A DNA stretch of 22,838 nucleotides, from IMG/VR virus record IMGVR_UViG_3300010149_004609, positions 1-22,838 of that record; one strand, written 5' to 3'. Below, piece by piece: positions 3,139 through 21,555 of this stretch (within the stretch, counting starts at the first letter, position 1; each line of letters starts with the position of its first letter). The notes under the pieces were generated by a model. The model did no database searches. It had not been told where the DNA came from and was given only the letters and a program-made list of their open reading frames with translations. This DNA is from a virus. The translations under genes were made by a program, and so were the position numbers.

Positions 3139-4503
3139 ATGGGGCGGAGAAATCTAAAAGCCGTTGGGTTATTTGACGGGTTGGCTAACACGCCTAATCC
3201 GTCTTTAATATCCGATTCTTTTAACAATATGTCTTTAAATTATACGGATAGTTCAATACTTTCATTATCTCCTACAAACAGTCACCTTTTGCCAATTAAC
3301 CCAAGTAGTCTAACAACTCCTGATGCTGCAAATGCGAAAAAAGGAGGGTTCAGTTTTTGGATTAAGATTCAACATGAGGTTGCTTTTCATTCAACTACGG
3401 CAGGTATCATAGGTATAAATCGTAATGTGGGTGGCAGTTATCTAAACCCATTTCCAGCAGTAAATTTGAATTTATTTAATGACAACGGAGTTTCAAGACT
3501 TCAATTACAAGTTTTGGCAACAAATGGAACGCTAAATACTTACAATGCGAATGTGACTTTGACAGTAGGACAATGGCATAATGCAACTGTTGTATTTGAT
3601 GTGGTTGGTGGCGGTGACACTATTTCTCTGTATCAAGATGCTGCGCTCGCTACTGTTGCCACATTATCGTATAACGCTGATGTATATGCTAACGACAATT
3701 ACTACATCATAGGGATGACGGCTTCATCTTTTATTACAAATCCTGATGGTACACTTGCACCCATATTCACCCCGCTCAAATATGCTTTAATAAATCACTT
3801 TCTTTTTTATGCCGGAACTGCAATTAATCACACTGTTATGTTTGGTCCTTCGCCTTCTATACCAAATCCTTACTACCCCGCAATAACCGATGCAGGTTTT
3901 TTGGCATTGTACCTAACGAGAGCGAATCAAACTATTGACAGTAATAGACTTTCAACATACATGAAAGCAACTACAATATCGGACTCAATAGATTTTGTAG
4001 CAACAAACATTAGTCCTATCCATCCGTCAGGAAGATATGTTGTCTATGATTTTATTAAGAAAAAAGGAACATATAACATGGTAGGGAATCAATACTCAAG
4101 AAGCGTTGAGCGGTTTCATACATGGGCTGATACCACTAATGGGCTTGAAACCAGTTGGGGAATGCCTCAAACAATTAGGGCTTTTTCTCAAGCGGTTACG
4201 AATGGAATGTTCATGCGCCCCGCATATTTACCATTTCAAAGAGGCGTTGGTCTTGATGTACCTTTAACTTCTATGTCCGGTGCTATAAATAAGAAACTTG
4301 CCCCGTTGTCTAATGTAAAACCATTGACGGCAAGTTATGTCAATGACTGGCCTAATGCCCCATCAGTCTTTGGTGGAAGTGGGTCTTTGTATCGAAAGGC
4401 ACATGAGAACACCTACCCAACACAGACAATAGGAACTATCACCGTCAATAATTACAAAGCGGTAGCCCCAACAAAAGGTTATTTCACCCCATCTTTTAGT
4501 TAA
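3139..4503 (+). CDS. LamG/concanavalin A-like virion surface protein
   Basis: 454 aa. Residues about 65-235 have the pattern of a laminin-G/concanavalin A-like jelly roll: GGFSFWIKIQHEV, then LNLFNDNGVSRLQLQVL, then VGQWHNATVVFDVVGGGDTISLYQD, which matches the 'W-x-hxxvxxdxxxxxxxLYxDG' signature of the fold. The remainder is rich in Asn, Pro, Tyr and Thr with no clear domain. Such folds bind sugars or cell surfaces; in virus structural regions they occur in decoration proteins, tail fibres or receptor-binding proteins. There is no signal peptide or membrane segment, which fits a virion protein assembled in the cytoplasm. The start has no SD, fitting leaderless translation. Confidence 0.65.
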   Translation: MGRRNLKAVGLFDGLANTPNPSLISDSFNNMSLNYTDSSILSLSPTNSHLLPINPSSLTTPDAANAKKGGFSFWIKIQHEVAFHSTTAGIIGINRNVGGSYLNPFPAVNLNLFNDNGVSRLQLQVLATNGTLNTYNANVTLTVGQWHNATVVFDVVGGGDTISLYQDAALATVATLSYNADVYANDNYYIIGMTASSFITNPDGTLAPIFTPLKYALINHFLFYAGTAINHTVMFGPSPSIPNPYYPAITDAGFLALYLTRANQTIDSNRLSTYMKATTISDSIDFVATNISPIHPSGRYVVYDFIKKKGTYNMVGNQYSRSVERFHTWADTTNGLETSWGMPQTIRAFSQAVTNGMFMRPAYLPFQRGVGLDVPLTSMSGAINKKLAPLSNVKPLTASYVNDWPNAPSVFGGSGSLYRKAHENTYPTQTIGTITVNNYKAVAPTKGYFTPSFS

Positions 4504-4525
4504 ATAGGCGGTATCTTTATATAGG
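4500..4525 (+). promoter_or_regulatory. Strong promoter with two ATAGG-type elements
   Basis: TTAAATAGG (4500-4508) is followed 17 bp later by the TATA box TTATATAGG (4517-4525), then ACTGGCC. The TATA box starts 28 nt before ATG 4545, so this mRNA should be leaderless. The first element overlaps the stop of the preceding gene and could be a viral activator site or a second box. Confidence 0.7.
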
Positions 4526-15265: not shown

Positions 15266-15282
15266 GACAACTGTTATATAGG
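15258..15282 (+). promoter_or_regulatory. Promoter of the short-gene chain
   Basis: TTATATAGG (15274-15282) starts 29 nt before ATG 15303, so ATG 15303 rather than the in-frame GTG 15297 is the likely start. An upstream TAAAATAGG (15258-15266) overlaps the helicase stop, 16 bp before. Confidence 0.65.
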
Positions 15283-16091: not shown

Positions 16092-16203
16092 TTCAATAAG
16101 TAAAATAGCAATAGATGCTATCACAATAATACATCATTTGGGTCAAGAAGATTTGGCTAAGATATTATTAGATAGATACGATAAGGTGATTAAAAATGAA
16201 TGA
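16084..16203 (+). CDS. 39-aa small helical protein
   Basis: Start ATG 16084 overlaps the preceding stop (16089-16091). The sequence MNDSISKIAIDAITIIHHLG followed by EDLAKILLDRYDKVIKNE looks like two amphipathic helices. Upstream in-frame ATG 15985 lies inside the preceding gene and is unlikely. The stop overlaps the start of the next gene (ATGAATGA), so translation is coupled. No family recognised. Confidence 0.5.
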   Translation: MNDSISKIAIDAITIIHHLGQEDLAKILLDRYDKVIKNE

Positions 16204-16864
16204 ACAAGACATAGAGGACAGGATAGGAGGTTTAATCTTCATACTACTTTTCCCGATACTGGGTTTTTTTGTAACAGGAAGTCTTGAAGGTGCTTGGCAA
16301 GGGTTTTTACTTATGTTTGTGGTTATAATTTTTGGAATAATTGCATATATATGCATCTTTGTTGTTTTTTTACCAATCATAATTCCATTTGTTGCTATAT
16401 CCAGTTTTAGAGATAAAAAAAGAAGCCAAAAATTTATTGAAGATGCGGAGAGGAAACACTTAGAATGGAAGCGAGAATACGAGGAACTTGAAGAAGCAAA
16501 AACCAATCTTACAAAATTACACCTTGCTGATGAAATAGACTTAGAAGAATATGAAAAGCGTTTGATTGCCTTATTTAAGTCAAGTGATTCAATGCGTTAC
16601 TCACAAGTCGTTACCAATGAATATGGAGAAAAAGTCATTGAAACTGGGATTAAAAAGAGAGATGTGGATATAGAAATTTTCCGTGTAAAAATGGCGAAGG
16701 AACATGATAAAGAAAGGGCGGCTTTGGCGAGTTTAAACCTTGATGAAGAAGAACTCATTGAGCAAACCGTTTTACTTTTCATGAAACACATGGAAGAAAT
16801 ACAGACAAGGTTTGATGACCTTCCAAAGATAAATTATAGTGAGAAGTACGAGTTGATAATGTGA
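16196..16864 (+). CDS. Membrane-anchored coiled-coil protein with SHOCT-like motif
   Basis: 222 aa. Residues about 11-30 and 36-69 are strongly hydrophobic, giving two or three membrane segments; the rest should face the cytoplasm. Residues 75-110 form a charged coiled coil (EDAERKHLEWKREYEELEEAK). The short LADEIDLEEYEKRL (about 110-123) resembles the SHOCT motif, which occurs at the end of many membrane proteins. The remainder is charged and helical. No enzyme motif is seen. As a viral membrane protein it could act in lysis, superinfection exclusion or remodelling of the membrane for replication; none is supported directly. The start overlaps the preceding stop. Confidence 0.6.
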   Translation: MNEQDIEDRIGGLIFILLFPILGFFVTGSLEGAWQGFLLMFVVIIFGIIAYICIFVVFLPIIIPFVAISSFRDKKRSQKFIEDAERKHLEWKREYEELEEAKTNLTKLHLADEIDLEEYEKRLIALFKSSDSMRYSQVVTNEYGEKVIETGIKKRDVDIEIFRVKMAKEHDKERAALASLNLDEEELIEQTVLLFMKHMEEIQTRFDDLPKINYSEKYELIM

Positions 16865-17240: not shown

Positions 17241-19091
17241 ATGTCCGATGCTATTGAGAGGTATAACAGGATTGTTAGGAAGCCGGAAGACGGCTTTTCC
17301 TACATACTACCTCCCGATGAAATGAAGCAGGACATAGAGGAAATAGGTCAAGACCACAGAATACCAAGAACTGCTATTGCCAGATGGGTTTCAAGAACCT
17401 ACGCTGAAACTGTAACACATGAACTCCAAGAGAATGAAAAACTATCAACCCCAATAGCCCAATCTGTAAGTGAAAAAGAAATGATGGAGCGGCCAATTCA
17501 TTATCCGAGCGATTTTGGTTTATCTTTGATACCATTTCCTTCCGATATAGGCGGTAATTATCTTCAAGACAGGATAGAAACAGTTTGCTACACAAGTTTA
17601 GCCGTGCCAAGACCATTTGACCCCCAAATATTCGCTTCGGGCGTTGGAGGGGGAGGTAACATAGGTAGCGGTGATGTTGCAGGTATGGGGTTTCACGCCT
17701 ATTCATCTTCACCAATTGGCGACATAAATGACTTGACAACCAGAAGAGGCGGTGGGTCAAGGGGTGGATTTGCTTTTACTACAACTCCATTTTCAAACGG
17801 TGAACCTTCCTCTGTTCAAGATGGAGGCTTAGAATTTGATTTGGGGGATTTAGGCTTTACAAACGGCGGGTGGAATCCCGAAGGACTGAAATATCAATTT
17901 AGGCCGAAGTCACTTAGACTCGGCGGGTTGAGAAATGGTTGGAAACACAGAGTATTTTTTGCACGGTCAAGGCAAGTATTGTATCGTAATATCTATGGTC
18001 AAATATCGGAAGATGAAGGAATACCAAATTGCCCTATGGTTGTAGTTAATGGCTTAGGGTTATTGAAGGGCATAACTTCAATATCATGCTCGGAAGGATT
18101 GAATACACCACGCAGTATGAACATTTCAATTTCAAGCATTCAAGGAAGGAGGGAAGGAATTGTCAATGTCGGAGATACAGTTCAAGTTTATCTTTCACCG
18201 AATAATTGGGCTAATCCACCTTTGATTTACACAGGTTATGTATCGGATATACAAGAAACGGCAAGGTCAATCACCCTGACCTGCTTAGATACATTGGGCT
18301 ACTTATCGAATGAAATAGTTCAATCCAGTAAACTTATTTCAACAAGTGATGGTTTAGCGATACTAAAAAACCTGATAGCGGGTTCTTCCGTTCCTATTCC
18401 AATTGATAGCATAATTGTTGAATCAAATGTAGTTGTTCCTAACTCCTTGAGCGTAGCAAATAAAACAATTCTAAGTGCATGTCAATCAGTTTTACAATTC
18501 ATGAACTCCGCACCAAAAATACATTCTTTGAGGGCAGAGAAAACTGGACTTATCAACATTAGGATATTACAAGATTTGGCGGATAGCAATTTACAACCTC
18601 TAAGGGGTGGAGAATTAACGGCTACCGGAAGAACAAGTAAGCCTTTGGATTTTTACCCAACTTATGTTGAGCAAGATAAAGGAGATTTGGATTTTTTCAA
18701 TGTTGTAGTTGTGATGAATGAAACTGCCGGAATAAACTTCACTTATCCGAACATTGGTAGCGTACAATATCCAACAAGACCCGTTCAAAAAATATTTACT
18801 GAATCTTCAATAACGAATAATATTCAAGCGGAGAGGTTTGCCAAACTAATGTTATCAAACATAGGTAGGGCAAAGGTTAGATATTCAGTTGATGGAATAC
18901 CTTCAACATTCGATATTAGAGTTGGTGACGCTATGGAATTTGCCACGACTGGAATATCAGGAATACATAGAATCATGGGTGTGTCGTGGAATATGACTGT
19001 TGATAGCCCACCTTCAATGACACTAAATGTGGGAAGAGAATCACCTGATTTGACTAAGACTTTGCAGTTAGCGTTGGAATTATCTAACTAA
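17241..19091 (+). CDS. Tail / baseplate hub-like protein
   Basis: 616 aa. The N-terminal ~220 residues are variable, with Gly-rich linkers (GVGGGGNIGSGDVAG near 135; RRGGGSRGG near 169). From about 270 the pattern fits gpD/gp27/XkdQ-type hub proteins: NISISSIQGRREGIVNVGD (near 294-312) followed by VQVYLSPN, YTGYVSDIQETARSITLTC and DTLGYLSNE. In that family the N-terminal beta barrel defines a reference frame 'GDxVxVxx...YxGxV...' and the trimer forms the hub that pierces the host surface. DGIPSTFDIRVGDAMEF near 555 is typical of the C-terminal barrel. No lysozyme or peptidase motif is seen. The family call rests on the barrel pattern and could be another tail-tip protein. Confidence 0.6.
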   Translation: MSDAIERYNRIVRKPEDGFSYILPPDEMKQDIEEIGQDHRIPRTAIARWVSRTYAETVTHELQENEKLSTPIAQSVSEKEMMERPIHYPSDFGLSLIPFPSDIGGNYLQDRIETVCYTSLAVPRPFDPQIFASGVGGGGNIGSGDVAGMGFHAYSSSPIGDINDLTTRRGGGSRGGFAFTTTPFSNGEPSSVQDGGLEFDLGDLGFTNGGWNPEGLKYQFRPKSLRLGGLRNGWKHRVFFARSRQVLYRNIYGQISEDEGIPNCPMVVVNGLGLLKGITSISCSEGLNTPRSMNISISSIQGRREGIVNVGDTVQVYLSPNNWANPPLIYTGYVSDIQETARSITLTCLDTLGYLSNEIVQSSKLISTSDGLAILKNLIAGSSVPIPIDSIIVESNVVVPNSLSVANKTILSACQSVLQFMNSAPKIHSLRAEKTGLINIRILQDLADSNLQPLRGGELTATGRTSKPLDFYPTYVEQDKGDLDFFNVVVVMNETAGINFTYPNIGSVQYPTRPVQKIFTESSITNNIQAERFAKLMLSNIGRAKVRYSVDGIPSTFDIRVGDAMEFATTGISGIHRIMGVSWNMTVDSPPSMTLNVGRESPDLTKTLQLALELSN

Positions 19092-19112
19092 TAGGCGATA
19101 TACTTATATAGG
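19087..19112 (+). promoter_or_regulatory. Strong promoter of the GC-rich RNA
   Basis: ACTAATAGG (19087-19095), then 17 bp later TTATATAGG (19104-19112), then GGTGGTC. By the window's spacing rule transcription starts near 19132-19134. A TTG at 19131 is followed at once by a stop, and no ORF begins there, so the product is an RNA. Confidence 0.7.
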
Positions 19113-19132
19113 GGTGGTCACTACCATTGTTT

Positions 19133-19323
19133 GTAGCCGACACATGAAACGACTGCAATACCGGACCACAACCTACGAATCCACCCTCGACGGGGGGAAT
19201 GGGCGGAGGCTCTGTACGGAAAGGAAAGTGTGTCAAAAAAGTCCTTGCCCCCGACAGTTAAGGCTCTCGCTCGGTTGAGCGGCAGATGGTGAGATAGAAC
19301 GGGCGGGCAAGGCACATCTTTTT
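19133..19323 (+). ncRNA. GC-rich structured RNA, ~190 nt, family not recognised
   Basis: GC-rich block in an otherwise AT-rich genome, bounded by a strong promoter and a T-run. It has no ORF on the + strand from the predicted start. Two domains are visible. Domain 1: GACACAT (19139-19145) pairs with GTGTGTC (19228-19234) and encloses a ~80-nt region with a CCCTC/GGGGG stem. Domain 2: CCTTGCCC (19243-19250) pairs with GGGCAAGG (19305-19312), enclosing CGCTC-GGTT-GAGCG (19268-19281). Then come C and ACA (19314-19316) and the U-run. Possible relatives are an H/ACA-type guide (hairpin plus ACA) or a reduced RNase P-like RNA (G-U-CC helix with an unpaired U and an AGAA nearby); neither is established. 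Two blocks are shared with the RNA at 2434. Confidence 0.6.
19316..19323 (+). terminator. T-run terminator of the GC-rich RNA
   Basis: The T-rich run at 19318-19323 follows the closing stem of domain 2 after six bases, matching the archaeal U-run terminator style. Confidence 0.5.
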
Positions 19324-19337
19324 CAATATTAATGATT

Positions 19338-19420
19338 ACAATTAATTGGTGTTTTTGTCGCCAAGTGTTTTTCTTGCATATAGTTTTGAAAGACCTTGAC
19401 GGTTCAAACCCTGCAATTGT
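19338..19420 (+). other. Degenerate cloverleaf-like fold (tRNA-like)
   Basis: ACAATT (19338-19343) pairs with AATTGT (19415-19420). Inside lie TTGGTG/CGCCAA (19346-19351 with 19359-19364, 7-nt loop), GTTTTTC/GAAAGAC (19367-19373 with 19388-19394, 14-nt loop) and a weak GG-TTCAAA-CC (19401-19410) T-arm-like element. The order is that of a cloverleaf, but the D-loop lacks GG, the third loop is too long and the T-stem has mismatches, so it is not a working tRNA. It may be a tRNA remnant or attachment-site-like piece, or chance in AT-rich DNA. Confidence 0.25.
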
Positions 19421-19430
19421 CTGATTCTTT

Positions 19431-19449
19431 AACCCCCCTACGGGGGGTT
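19431..19449 (+). other. Perfect G/C hairpin
   Basis: AACCCCCC-TAC-GGGGGGTT: eight perfect pairs with a three-base loop, the most stable hairpin in the window, in an AT-rich setting. No T-run follows, so a terminator is less likely than a replication or protein-binding site. Confidence 0.6.
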
Positions 19450-19479
19450 ATCCTAATTATTCATACTACAACACATACT

Positions 19480-19551: not shown

Positions 19552-19572
19552 TGGGTATGCACCTTGACAGAT

Positions 19573-21555
19573 ATGGCGACTGACCTTGAAGTAAAACAAT
19601 CCCCCGAATCTTCAACCGTATTTGAGTTTGAATCGGGCGACATAAGCATATCTTTGACCTTCCTTACATCAACAAAGGGCAGGATGGAGTTTGCAGTCGA
19701 GATAGATGAAAAGCCACAGGGCAAGGTAAATGTCCTATCCCAACATTCAATTGCTCGACTTGCTAAGAGCGCAGGTATTGTTGATTCTAAAGATTTTACA
19801 GATGACTTCCTGCAAGCCGGAACTATACTTCGGGATGGAAAATATACTCCTGCACCAATGAAAGATAAAATTCAAGTCGAAACTGAAACATTTGAAGGTG
19901 AAGAAAGCACCTACGGGTCTATTGATGAGAATACCATTAGTAATTTTTTGGGAGAAAGACATTTGCTCGATAAGGTAAATTCAATCCTCCACGAATCAAG
20001 AGAAACACCGTTTGTTGGTGATGATGCAAACCTCATGCTAACCTTCCTTGTTTTCTTGTCTTGTAAGACCGACAATCCACTTAATCTTGAAATGATAGGA
20101 CAGTCGGCCAGTGGAAAAACATACATGACCCTGACGGCGAGAAACGGTTTTCCTAAGAGCATGATTATGGTTTTAGCGGGTGCATCGAAAGAGGCATTGA
20201 AGTACGACTACGATGAGATTGATGAGGAAGGTAACTTCATTGTTAATGTTGATGGGCGTTGCATTGTTGTCTTGGAAAAGGATGAATCATACGCTTTTAT
20301 CAAAAAGATGAAACCGATTATGAGCGGTGACGATGATGAGTTAGTTTGGAAAACTCCAATCAAGAATGAGTTATCGGGTGAAATAGAAACAAAGGACTTC
20401 ATCATTAGAGGAAGGCCATCATTTATCACCCTGACTACAAGAAATCCAAGCGAGGCTGAACAGATAACCCGTCAATTGATTATGACTCCCGATACCACAG
20501 TTGAGAAAGTTGATAATGTTGTTAAGAATGCTTTGATGCAAAAAGCAAGACCGGAGAAATTTACTATTCATCCAGATTTGAAACTACTACAAGCGTCTAT
20601 GCTCGGACTAACTCAATACAAAGTTAGGAACATATTCGCCCCTCTAATGGCTGACTTCTTCCCTGCAAGAAATGCTCAACACCAAAGGGATATAGGCAAG
20701 GTATTGTCAATAATAGATGCAGTTACTTTGTTGCATCAAAACCAACGGCCAGTACAAAAAACAGATGACGAACAAGAATTTTTATTGTCATCAATTGAAG
20801 ATAATGTCATTGGCCTACTTCTTTGTGACCTTGTTCTAAGAGCCAGTTTGTCGGGTGTACCTGACGGAACTTGGACTATATTTCAACAAATGAATGCTAT
20901 GCAAGAAGCAAGGCGTTCTCTCACAGAGGACAACATACTACAATGGTTGAGTATTCACGCTTTTAGCACCACTAAGAATGCCTTGAAGGAAAAGCACCTG
21001 CCAACCTTAGAAGATGCAGGGTTGGTTGAAGTTAGTCGCAGAGGCGGCGGCAGAGGCGGCGGCAGAAAGACTTACAAAATTGTCAAATCCAAAGCAGGAT
21101 TGATGGATGATTATGCACTTGCACCATTATTTGTTGAAGCAGCGAGAAACAAACTACCGGAGATAATAACCGAATACGATGATATTTTACAACAGGCAGT
21201 AAAAGCAAAAATACTTCATCCAATCAAAGGGTCGGATAAAGATAATCTAAAGTCAATCGGTTGTACTAAAGAACAATCAAGCGTTTGGCGGTCACTGTTC
21301 CTACCTGCCTATCTTAGACCTCAAGGCAAAAAGACATTGATAGATGAAGTAATTGGTGATTCAAAGCATAAAACGAATTTATTTTCAGGTTCAGCATGGT
21401 TTAGTGGTGAAAACATAGCCACCGACAAACTAAGCAAGCGTAGGGAAGTTATCGAGAATATTCAAACAAGTTCAAAGCAGATAGCACCCGAAGATGACGA
21501 ACTATGGGAAGCCATGCTAAATGCTCAAATTGACGACATGGAAGATGAGGATTAA
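19573..21555 (+). CDS. AAA+ ATPase, MCM / primase-helicase-like replication protein
   Basis: 660 aa from ATG 19573. Residues 1-120 are an acidic, unassigned N-terminal domain. The ATPase core has Walker A GQSASGKT (176-183), a Walker B-like strand CIVVLEKDE (230-238), and TTRNPSEAEQITRQ (288-301), which places Arg residues like the sensor/finger region of MCM-type and related helicases. Around 447-503 a winged helix is visible, ending in a wing with GGGRGGGRKTYKI. This layout fits viral helicases or initiators that load at an origin. Its direct neighbours are a gene-free, structured region upstream and an SSB-like gene downstream, so a replication role is likely. The exact family is not certain; D of Walker B is replaced by EK in front of DE. 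The last residues are acidic. Confidence 0.65.
   Translation: MATDLEVKQSPESSTVFEFESGDISISLTFLTSTKGRMEFAVEIDEKPQGKVNVLSQHSIARLAKSAGIVDSKDFTDDFLQAGTILRDGKYTPAPMKDKIQVETETFEGEESTYGSIDENTISNFLGERHLLDKVNSILHESRETPFVGDDANLMLTFLVFLSCKTDNPLNLEMIGQSASGKTYMTLTARNGFPKSMIMVLAGASKEALKYDYDEIDEEGNFIVNVDGRCIVVLEKDESYAFIKKMKPIMSGDDDELVWKTPIKNELSGEIETKDFIIRGRPSFITLTTRNPSEAEQITRQLIMTPDTTVEKVDNVVKNALMQKARPEKFTIHPDLKLLQASMLGLTQYKVRNIFAPLMADFFPARNAQHQRDIGKVLSIIDAVTLLHQNQRPVQKTDDEQEFLLSSIEDNVIGLLLCDLVLRASLSGVPDGTWTIFQQMNAMQEARRSLTEDNILQWLSIHAFSTTKNALKEKHLPTLEDAGLVEVSRRGGGRGGGRKTYKIVKSKAGLMDDYALAPLFVEAARNKLPEIITEYDDILQQAVKAKILHPIKGSDKDNLKSIGCTKEQSSVWRSLFLPAYLRPQGKKTLIDEVIGDSKHKTNLFSGSAWFSGENIATDKLSKRREVIENIQTSSKQIAPEDDELWEAMLNAQIDDMEDED
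21039..21062 (+). repeat. 12-bp tandem repeat in the winged-helix wing
   Basis: Two perfect copies of CAGAGGCGGCGG encode RGGGRGGG of the wing. The insertion is in frame and GC-rich unlike its surroundings, suggesting a recent duplication. Confidence 0.8.

Follow-up and report, generated by a model that had tools for sequence, protein, structure and literature searches.

A probable promoter-driven noncoding RNA gene in an exchangeable accessory site of a viral genome

A 22,838-nt stretch of viral DNA (IMG/VR record IMGVR_UViG_3300010149_004609; hereafter the window) carries a well-supported predicted transcription unit at 19104-19323. We consider it probable that this unit is an independent noncoding RNA (ncRNA) gene, that it is one cassette in an accessory-gene site and that its product acts in trans. 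A standard leaderless-gene promoter would drive transcription from about 19129, a start predicted from promoter spacing, to a run of U near 19323, where the transcript is predicted to end. The unit would be separate from the downstream replication gene rather than its leader, and a monocistronic RNA that is so freely replaced would most likely be an accessory factor acting in trans. In its favor, the promoter equals those of protein genes in strength, the flanks in a close relative are highly similar around an unrelated insert, and other inserts at the site, all of which are GC-rich, show covariation. Against it stand the fold of the window RNA, which is no better than that of shuffled sequences, and the failure to find a diverged homologue. 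The features are listed in Table 1.

Table 1. Features at and around the predicted ncRNA gene of the window
Feature	Coordinates	Strand	Basis or remarks
Tail protein gene, left border of site	17241-19091	+	Match to PHROG 1887 (tail protein) at E 1.7e-5; 91% identity to L002 in the left flank
Promoter	19090-19114	+	Upstream ATAGGCGATA (BRE-like region); TATA box TTATATAG from 19104
Predicted ncRNA, ~195 nt, GC 0.56	19129-19323	+	Start from promoter spacing; end from U5
GUUUGUAG start	19129-19136	+	Same +25 offset from TATA as ncRNAs of L003, L004 and L005
Alternative 5' hairpin, 19133-19139/19150-19156, loop ACACAUGAAA	19133-19156	+	6/7 positions paired; pair probability ~0.48
Helix 1, 7 bp, 19139-19145/19228-19234	19139-19234	+	Pair probability ~0.52; domain z -0.42
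Helix 2, 8 bp, 19243-19250/19305-19312	19243-19312	+	Pair probability 0.70-1.0; domain z -1.1
CCCGACAGUUAAGGC, module X loop-like	19250-19264	+	Such a match in 0.55% of shuffles
U5 run, likely transcription terminator	19319-19323	+	Sequence
Conserved structured element, right border (C6/G6 hairpin)	19331-19455	.	Aligned in 12-14 relatives; z -4.39 for 19335-19455
Conserved protein of 663 aa downstream, presumed to act in replication	19564-21555	+	71 relatives in viral contigs

An initial annotation of this DNA had described a strong promoter ahead of a noncoding segment that ends in a U-run, and both signals are present. The promoter is of the archaeal type, with TTATATAGGGG at 19104 and ATAGGCGATA upstream of it. 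A scoring matrix built from 74 promoters of leaderless genes in related contigs, each with an ATG 27-30 nt downstream, gave it 31.3 bits compared with a training median of 29.0. Five sites in the window exceeded 30 bits, all on the plus strand (4517, 16992, 2406, 19104 and 13207); a sixth promoter, at 15274, scored 19.8 bits and the next best site 13.2 bits. An ATG lies at an offset of 27-30 after the motif in 67 of 97 distinct TTATATAG sites. At 19104 the elements of such leaderless promoters are found together, namely the TTATATAG box, ATAGGCGA upstream of it and a predicted start about 25-29 nt downstream. The earlier extent of the unit, 19133-19323, has the same predicted end, and the start is predicted nearer 19129 than 19133. 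The GC-rich character ascribed to the segment was also borne out, with a GC content of 0.56 for the insert against about 0.40 for the genome. A second promoter-driven ncRNA candidate was noticed at 2432-2525 (promoter of 31.5 bits at 2406, z -2.28), and it is 91% identical to L138 5060-5164.

The segment had also been described as free of open reading frames, which is roughly the case: two small frames beginning with GTG overlap the insert, one of 54 aa on the plus strand and one of 64 aa on the minus strand. We regard it as very improbable that either is a small protein gene. Open frames do exist over the insert and small ORFs fill the same site in two relatives (L002 and L009), but the leaderless position has no ATG, minus-strand promoter matches here reach at most 7.1 bits, and a search for relatives of the 64-aa frame found none.

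The loci of relatives were gathered by searching with the 663-aa protein, giving 36 and then 71 loci. This protein matched no Pfam or PHROG family and its replication function is presumed. In the nearest clade, the tail gene and the 19331-19455 element are kept while the insert between them changes completely. In L002 the flanks are 91% and 96% identical to those of the window and the inserts are 51% identical, compared with 52% for shuffles; the L002 insert encodes a 61-aa acidic protein. The L009 insert is an ORF with many Cys pairs, which by eye resembles a zinc ribbon and has no match in Pfam. In L005 the site holds an ncRNA followed in tandem by a near-identical copy of the L002 ORF, and the two have near-identical promoters with 25 bp in common. 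GC-rich ncRNA candidates were found at the site in L003, L004, L007/L054, L008, L010, L011/L013, L012, L055, L058 and L061-L063, so that an ncRNA is present in most distinct versions of the site. These comparisons show that the contents of the site are exchanged among relatives for other ncRNAs, for small proteins or for both in tandem. Recombination points are possibly provided by the near-identical promoter together with the conserved right border. As for the right border itself, the C6/G6 hairpin of 19331-19455 covaries and the element is kept in all loci of the clade while the adjoining cassette changes; it may be an origin of replication or a structured RNA.

The exchange of site contents bears on the role in replication that the initial annotation had entertained. 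The window RNA adjoins both the conserved structured element and the presumed replication gene, as expected if it were the leader of the 663-aa protein gene or acted in cis in replication. Relatives, however, keep the element and the gene while replacing the RNA with a protein gene (L002 and L009) or with an ncRNA on the opposite strand (L010, L012, L055 and L058), and the U-run would terminate the RNA about 240 nt ahead of the gene. Since the RNA is replaced where the replication gene is kept, a replication role in cis is disfavored and we judge it improbable.

Several of the ncRNAs at the site in relatives are real by covariation. Family D (L008, L061 and L062) has 12 compensatory pairs and folds into a four-way junction followed by a 3' hairpin. 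The junction, seen in L008 at 4305-4505 and in L061 and L062, is small and cloverleaf-like, is supported by compensatory changes and is possibly a mimic of another RNA. The 3' hairpin of family D, which we call module X, recurs at the 3' terminus of otherwise different RNAs; it is carried by families B and D, by E in L058 and by the minus-strand RNA of L010. Module X was defined by a 12-bp stem, a CCCGAC..UAGGC loop and recognition by a covariance model, R1, with which true members score 40-75 bits. Over seven sequences, 8 of its 12 pairs show double changes and 97.6% of cells are paired, which no shuffle equals. A further copy ends a promoter-driven RNA in L138 (16323-16367, 40.4 bits). In view of how many bases were scanned, X-loop matches in the unrelated contigs L120-L122 were attributed to chance.

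Constant domains occur at the 5' end as well. Motif Y consists of a UUU tail, a 7-8 bp stem, a CAA or AAA loop and then CGAAG, and it lies about 29 nt from the TATA box in RNAs of L004, L005, L010, L043, L061 and L136. L004 has a second copy immediately downstream of the first; L151 carries the motif too, with a less clear TATA box. Family I (L010, L055, L061, L062 on the minus strand, L136 5440 and L151 5363) starts with GAUUGUUGGGGCAACAACCCCGACCGAAG, a near-invariant 5' domain, and the body that comes next is unrelated from one virus to another. A 22-nt part of the form that motif Y takes in family I is identical even where the replication proteins of the viruses share only about 62% identity. 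The conserved 5' domain was not found in GTDB genomes and there is thus no support for its mimicking a host RNA. RNA family A occupies a different site (L002 11155-11440, L004 6840-7112 and L005 9709-9989). It combines a 5' hairpin whose sequence is unrelated between viruses with a 3' domain, some 170 nt long, that is conserved, and it has z of -3 to -4.4 and 12 compensatory pairs. L066, which is from the same record as L014, and L113 have in common a GC-rich noncoding segment with GGGAGATACCCGTAAAACAGGAAA, which lies upstream of the homologue of the 663-aa protein and is on the plus strand of one contig relative to the minus strand of the other.

The window RNA itself presents a different picture. 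The initial annotation had described two long-range helices, and both can be drawn, but the overall fold is not beyond chance: the MFE z was 0.28 for 19133-19323, no better than dinucleotide shuffles, and 0.07 for 19131-19318. The z values of the ncRNA candidates of relatives range from -1.25 to -5.0. By pair probability helix 2 is firm, helix 1 and the alternative 5' hairpin are near-equal competitors, and the hairpin is matched by 9% of shuffles, or by 2% if an A-rich loop is required. The sequence of the window RNA is present in two further contigs, apparently of the same virus, one of them with 1 difference in 144 nt. It was found nowhere else among 25 related viral records, and the search yielded no diverged homologue. 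Among phage records, similar DNA was limited to three short chance matches, and antisense complementarity of the RNA to its own viral genome was of chance length. The values of z near 0 and the restriction of the sequence to one virus would fit a decayed or neutral insert, in which a working promoter makes a functionless RNA. We consider such an insert unlikely, as its GC content is held at 0.56 in an AT-rich genome like that of the confirmed RNAs, its promoter is intact and top-scoring, and ncRNAs occupy most distinct versions of the site. The earlier description of a promoter-driven ncRNA is supported, mostly by context, that is, by the other ncRNA genes at the site in relatives, some of them covarying.

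We compared the window RNA with the constant domains of the relatives' RNAs. It is possible, if somewhat doubtful, that it is a diverged, remote member of the class with motif Y and module X, with an extra hairpin inserted in the X domain; membership would refine the explanation as an accessory ncRNA and not exclude it. The RNA has GUUUGUAG at its predicted start, at +25 as in three relatives, and at the motif Y position there is a possible 5' stem of seven positions, six of them paired, with an A-rich loop. The CCCGACAGUUAAGGC loop resembles that of module X, and both ends of the RNA are positioned where Y and X sit. On the other hand, the Y-like stem competes with helix 1, the CGAAG of motif Y is missing, with AAUAC after the stem instead, helix 2 shows the reverse of module X's strand bias, and the comparison was post hoc, made on sequences already seen. 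The covariance model R1, run with filters off, gave no meaningful score at 19251 of the window. Module X as the 3' domain of the window RNA was rejected on this result, which leaves a resemblance in the loop only.

The initial annotation had placed the RNA in no known family and had suggested a covariance search. In Rfam 15 at the gathering cutoff, neither the window nor the RNAs of relatives had a match, and a relaxed threshold produced chance matches only. It had also raised a role in RNA modification or processing, for which the one positive sign was an ACA at 19314-19316, one base past helix 2, above which lies an internal loop. These features would recall an H/ACA-type modification guide RNA, a type marked by a hairpin with a pseudouridylation pocket, a K-turn and an ACA. 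That identity appears extremely improbable, given the outcome of the relaxed Rfam search, the weak upper stem, the lack of a K-turn recognizable by eye and the missing ACA at this position in some other RNAs of the site.

Tailed phages have accessory ('moron'-type) loci, including anti-defence islands. The site in the window is similar in being a small independent unit between structural and replication genes that is exchanged among relatives; it differs in carrying mostly structured RNA instead of proteins and in that its anti-defence action is putative. GOLLD and ROOL occur in phages. These ornate large RNAs are, like the window RNA, structured ncRNAs of unknown function (PMC12286853), but they are much larger and the window RNA did not match them in the Rfam search. 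RNA-based anti-CRISPRs (Racrs) are likewise small virus-encoded ncRNAs with their own genes (PMC10651486); Racrs mimic CRISPR repeats, whereas the likeness of the window RNA to them lies in its small size and in its probably having a gene of its own. VIPR vrRNAs, reported in archaeal viruses too, are virus-encoded ncRNAs that join a variable part to a structured tail, but they consist of tandem GGY/NN repeats (PMC13142463). The window RNA was rejected as a vrRNA on the absence of GGYNNGGYNNGGY from the window.

The virus is tailed and marine, with a host that is probably archaeal. The archaeal host is argued from the TATA box and the leaderless architecture, so that the earlier suggestion of archaea agrees with the promoter type and stands as a deduction rather than a demonstration. 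Marine Poseidoniales would be a plausible guess; Satyavativiridae are an example of the described viruses of this group (PMC13108676), with no kinship to the present virus claimed. The replication protein has no relative in GTDB genomes, and no match to the tail, head-tail adaptor or replication proteins was found in named phage records. The helicase has distant relatives in named phages at about 25-28% identity, including viruses of haloarchaea and methanogens. A 222-aa protein at 16196-16864 matched Csx27 weakly (E 0.0065), probably by chance.

Returning to the independent, trans-acting ncRNA gene that we favor, one can ask what its product may act on. Host defence, host RNA or competing viruses are conceivable targets, a suggestion that fits since the site has a high turnover and mixes RNAs with small proteins, although we hold it to be less likely than not. 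Both this anti-defence step and the action in trans are drawn from context. On a larger scale, we tentatively propose that this lineage of archaeal tailed viruses may keep a fast-exchanging repertoire of structured ncRNAs, which would take over from small proteins the part of weapons or shields that act in trans, with the window RNA as one cassette. With similar reserve, this repertoire might use one common promoter type, some of its RNAs combining a constant 5' or 3' domain with a variable body.

A virus-encoded accessory ncRNA is of an already known kind, but families unmatched in Rfam, in a cassette site shared with ORFs, look new; no description of the lineage's RNA repertoire was found in the open-licence full-text literature. 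The main interest therefore lies in that repertoire, and the window RNA alone deserves less. Accessory loci of tailed viruses are usually taken to carry proteins, whereas this one holds mostly structured RNAs that lack Rfam relatives, some of them certified by covariation. These RNAs make up a defined set for testing host take-over or anti-defence in marine, probably archaeal, hosts, and they show that viral ncRNA genes can be discovered through their promoter even if the RNA is a singleton.
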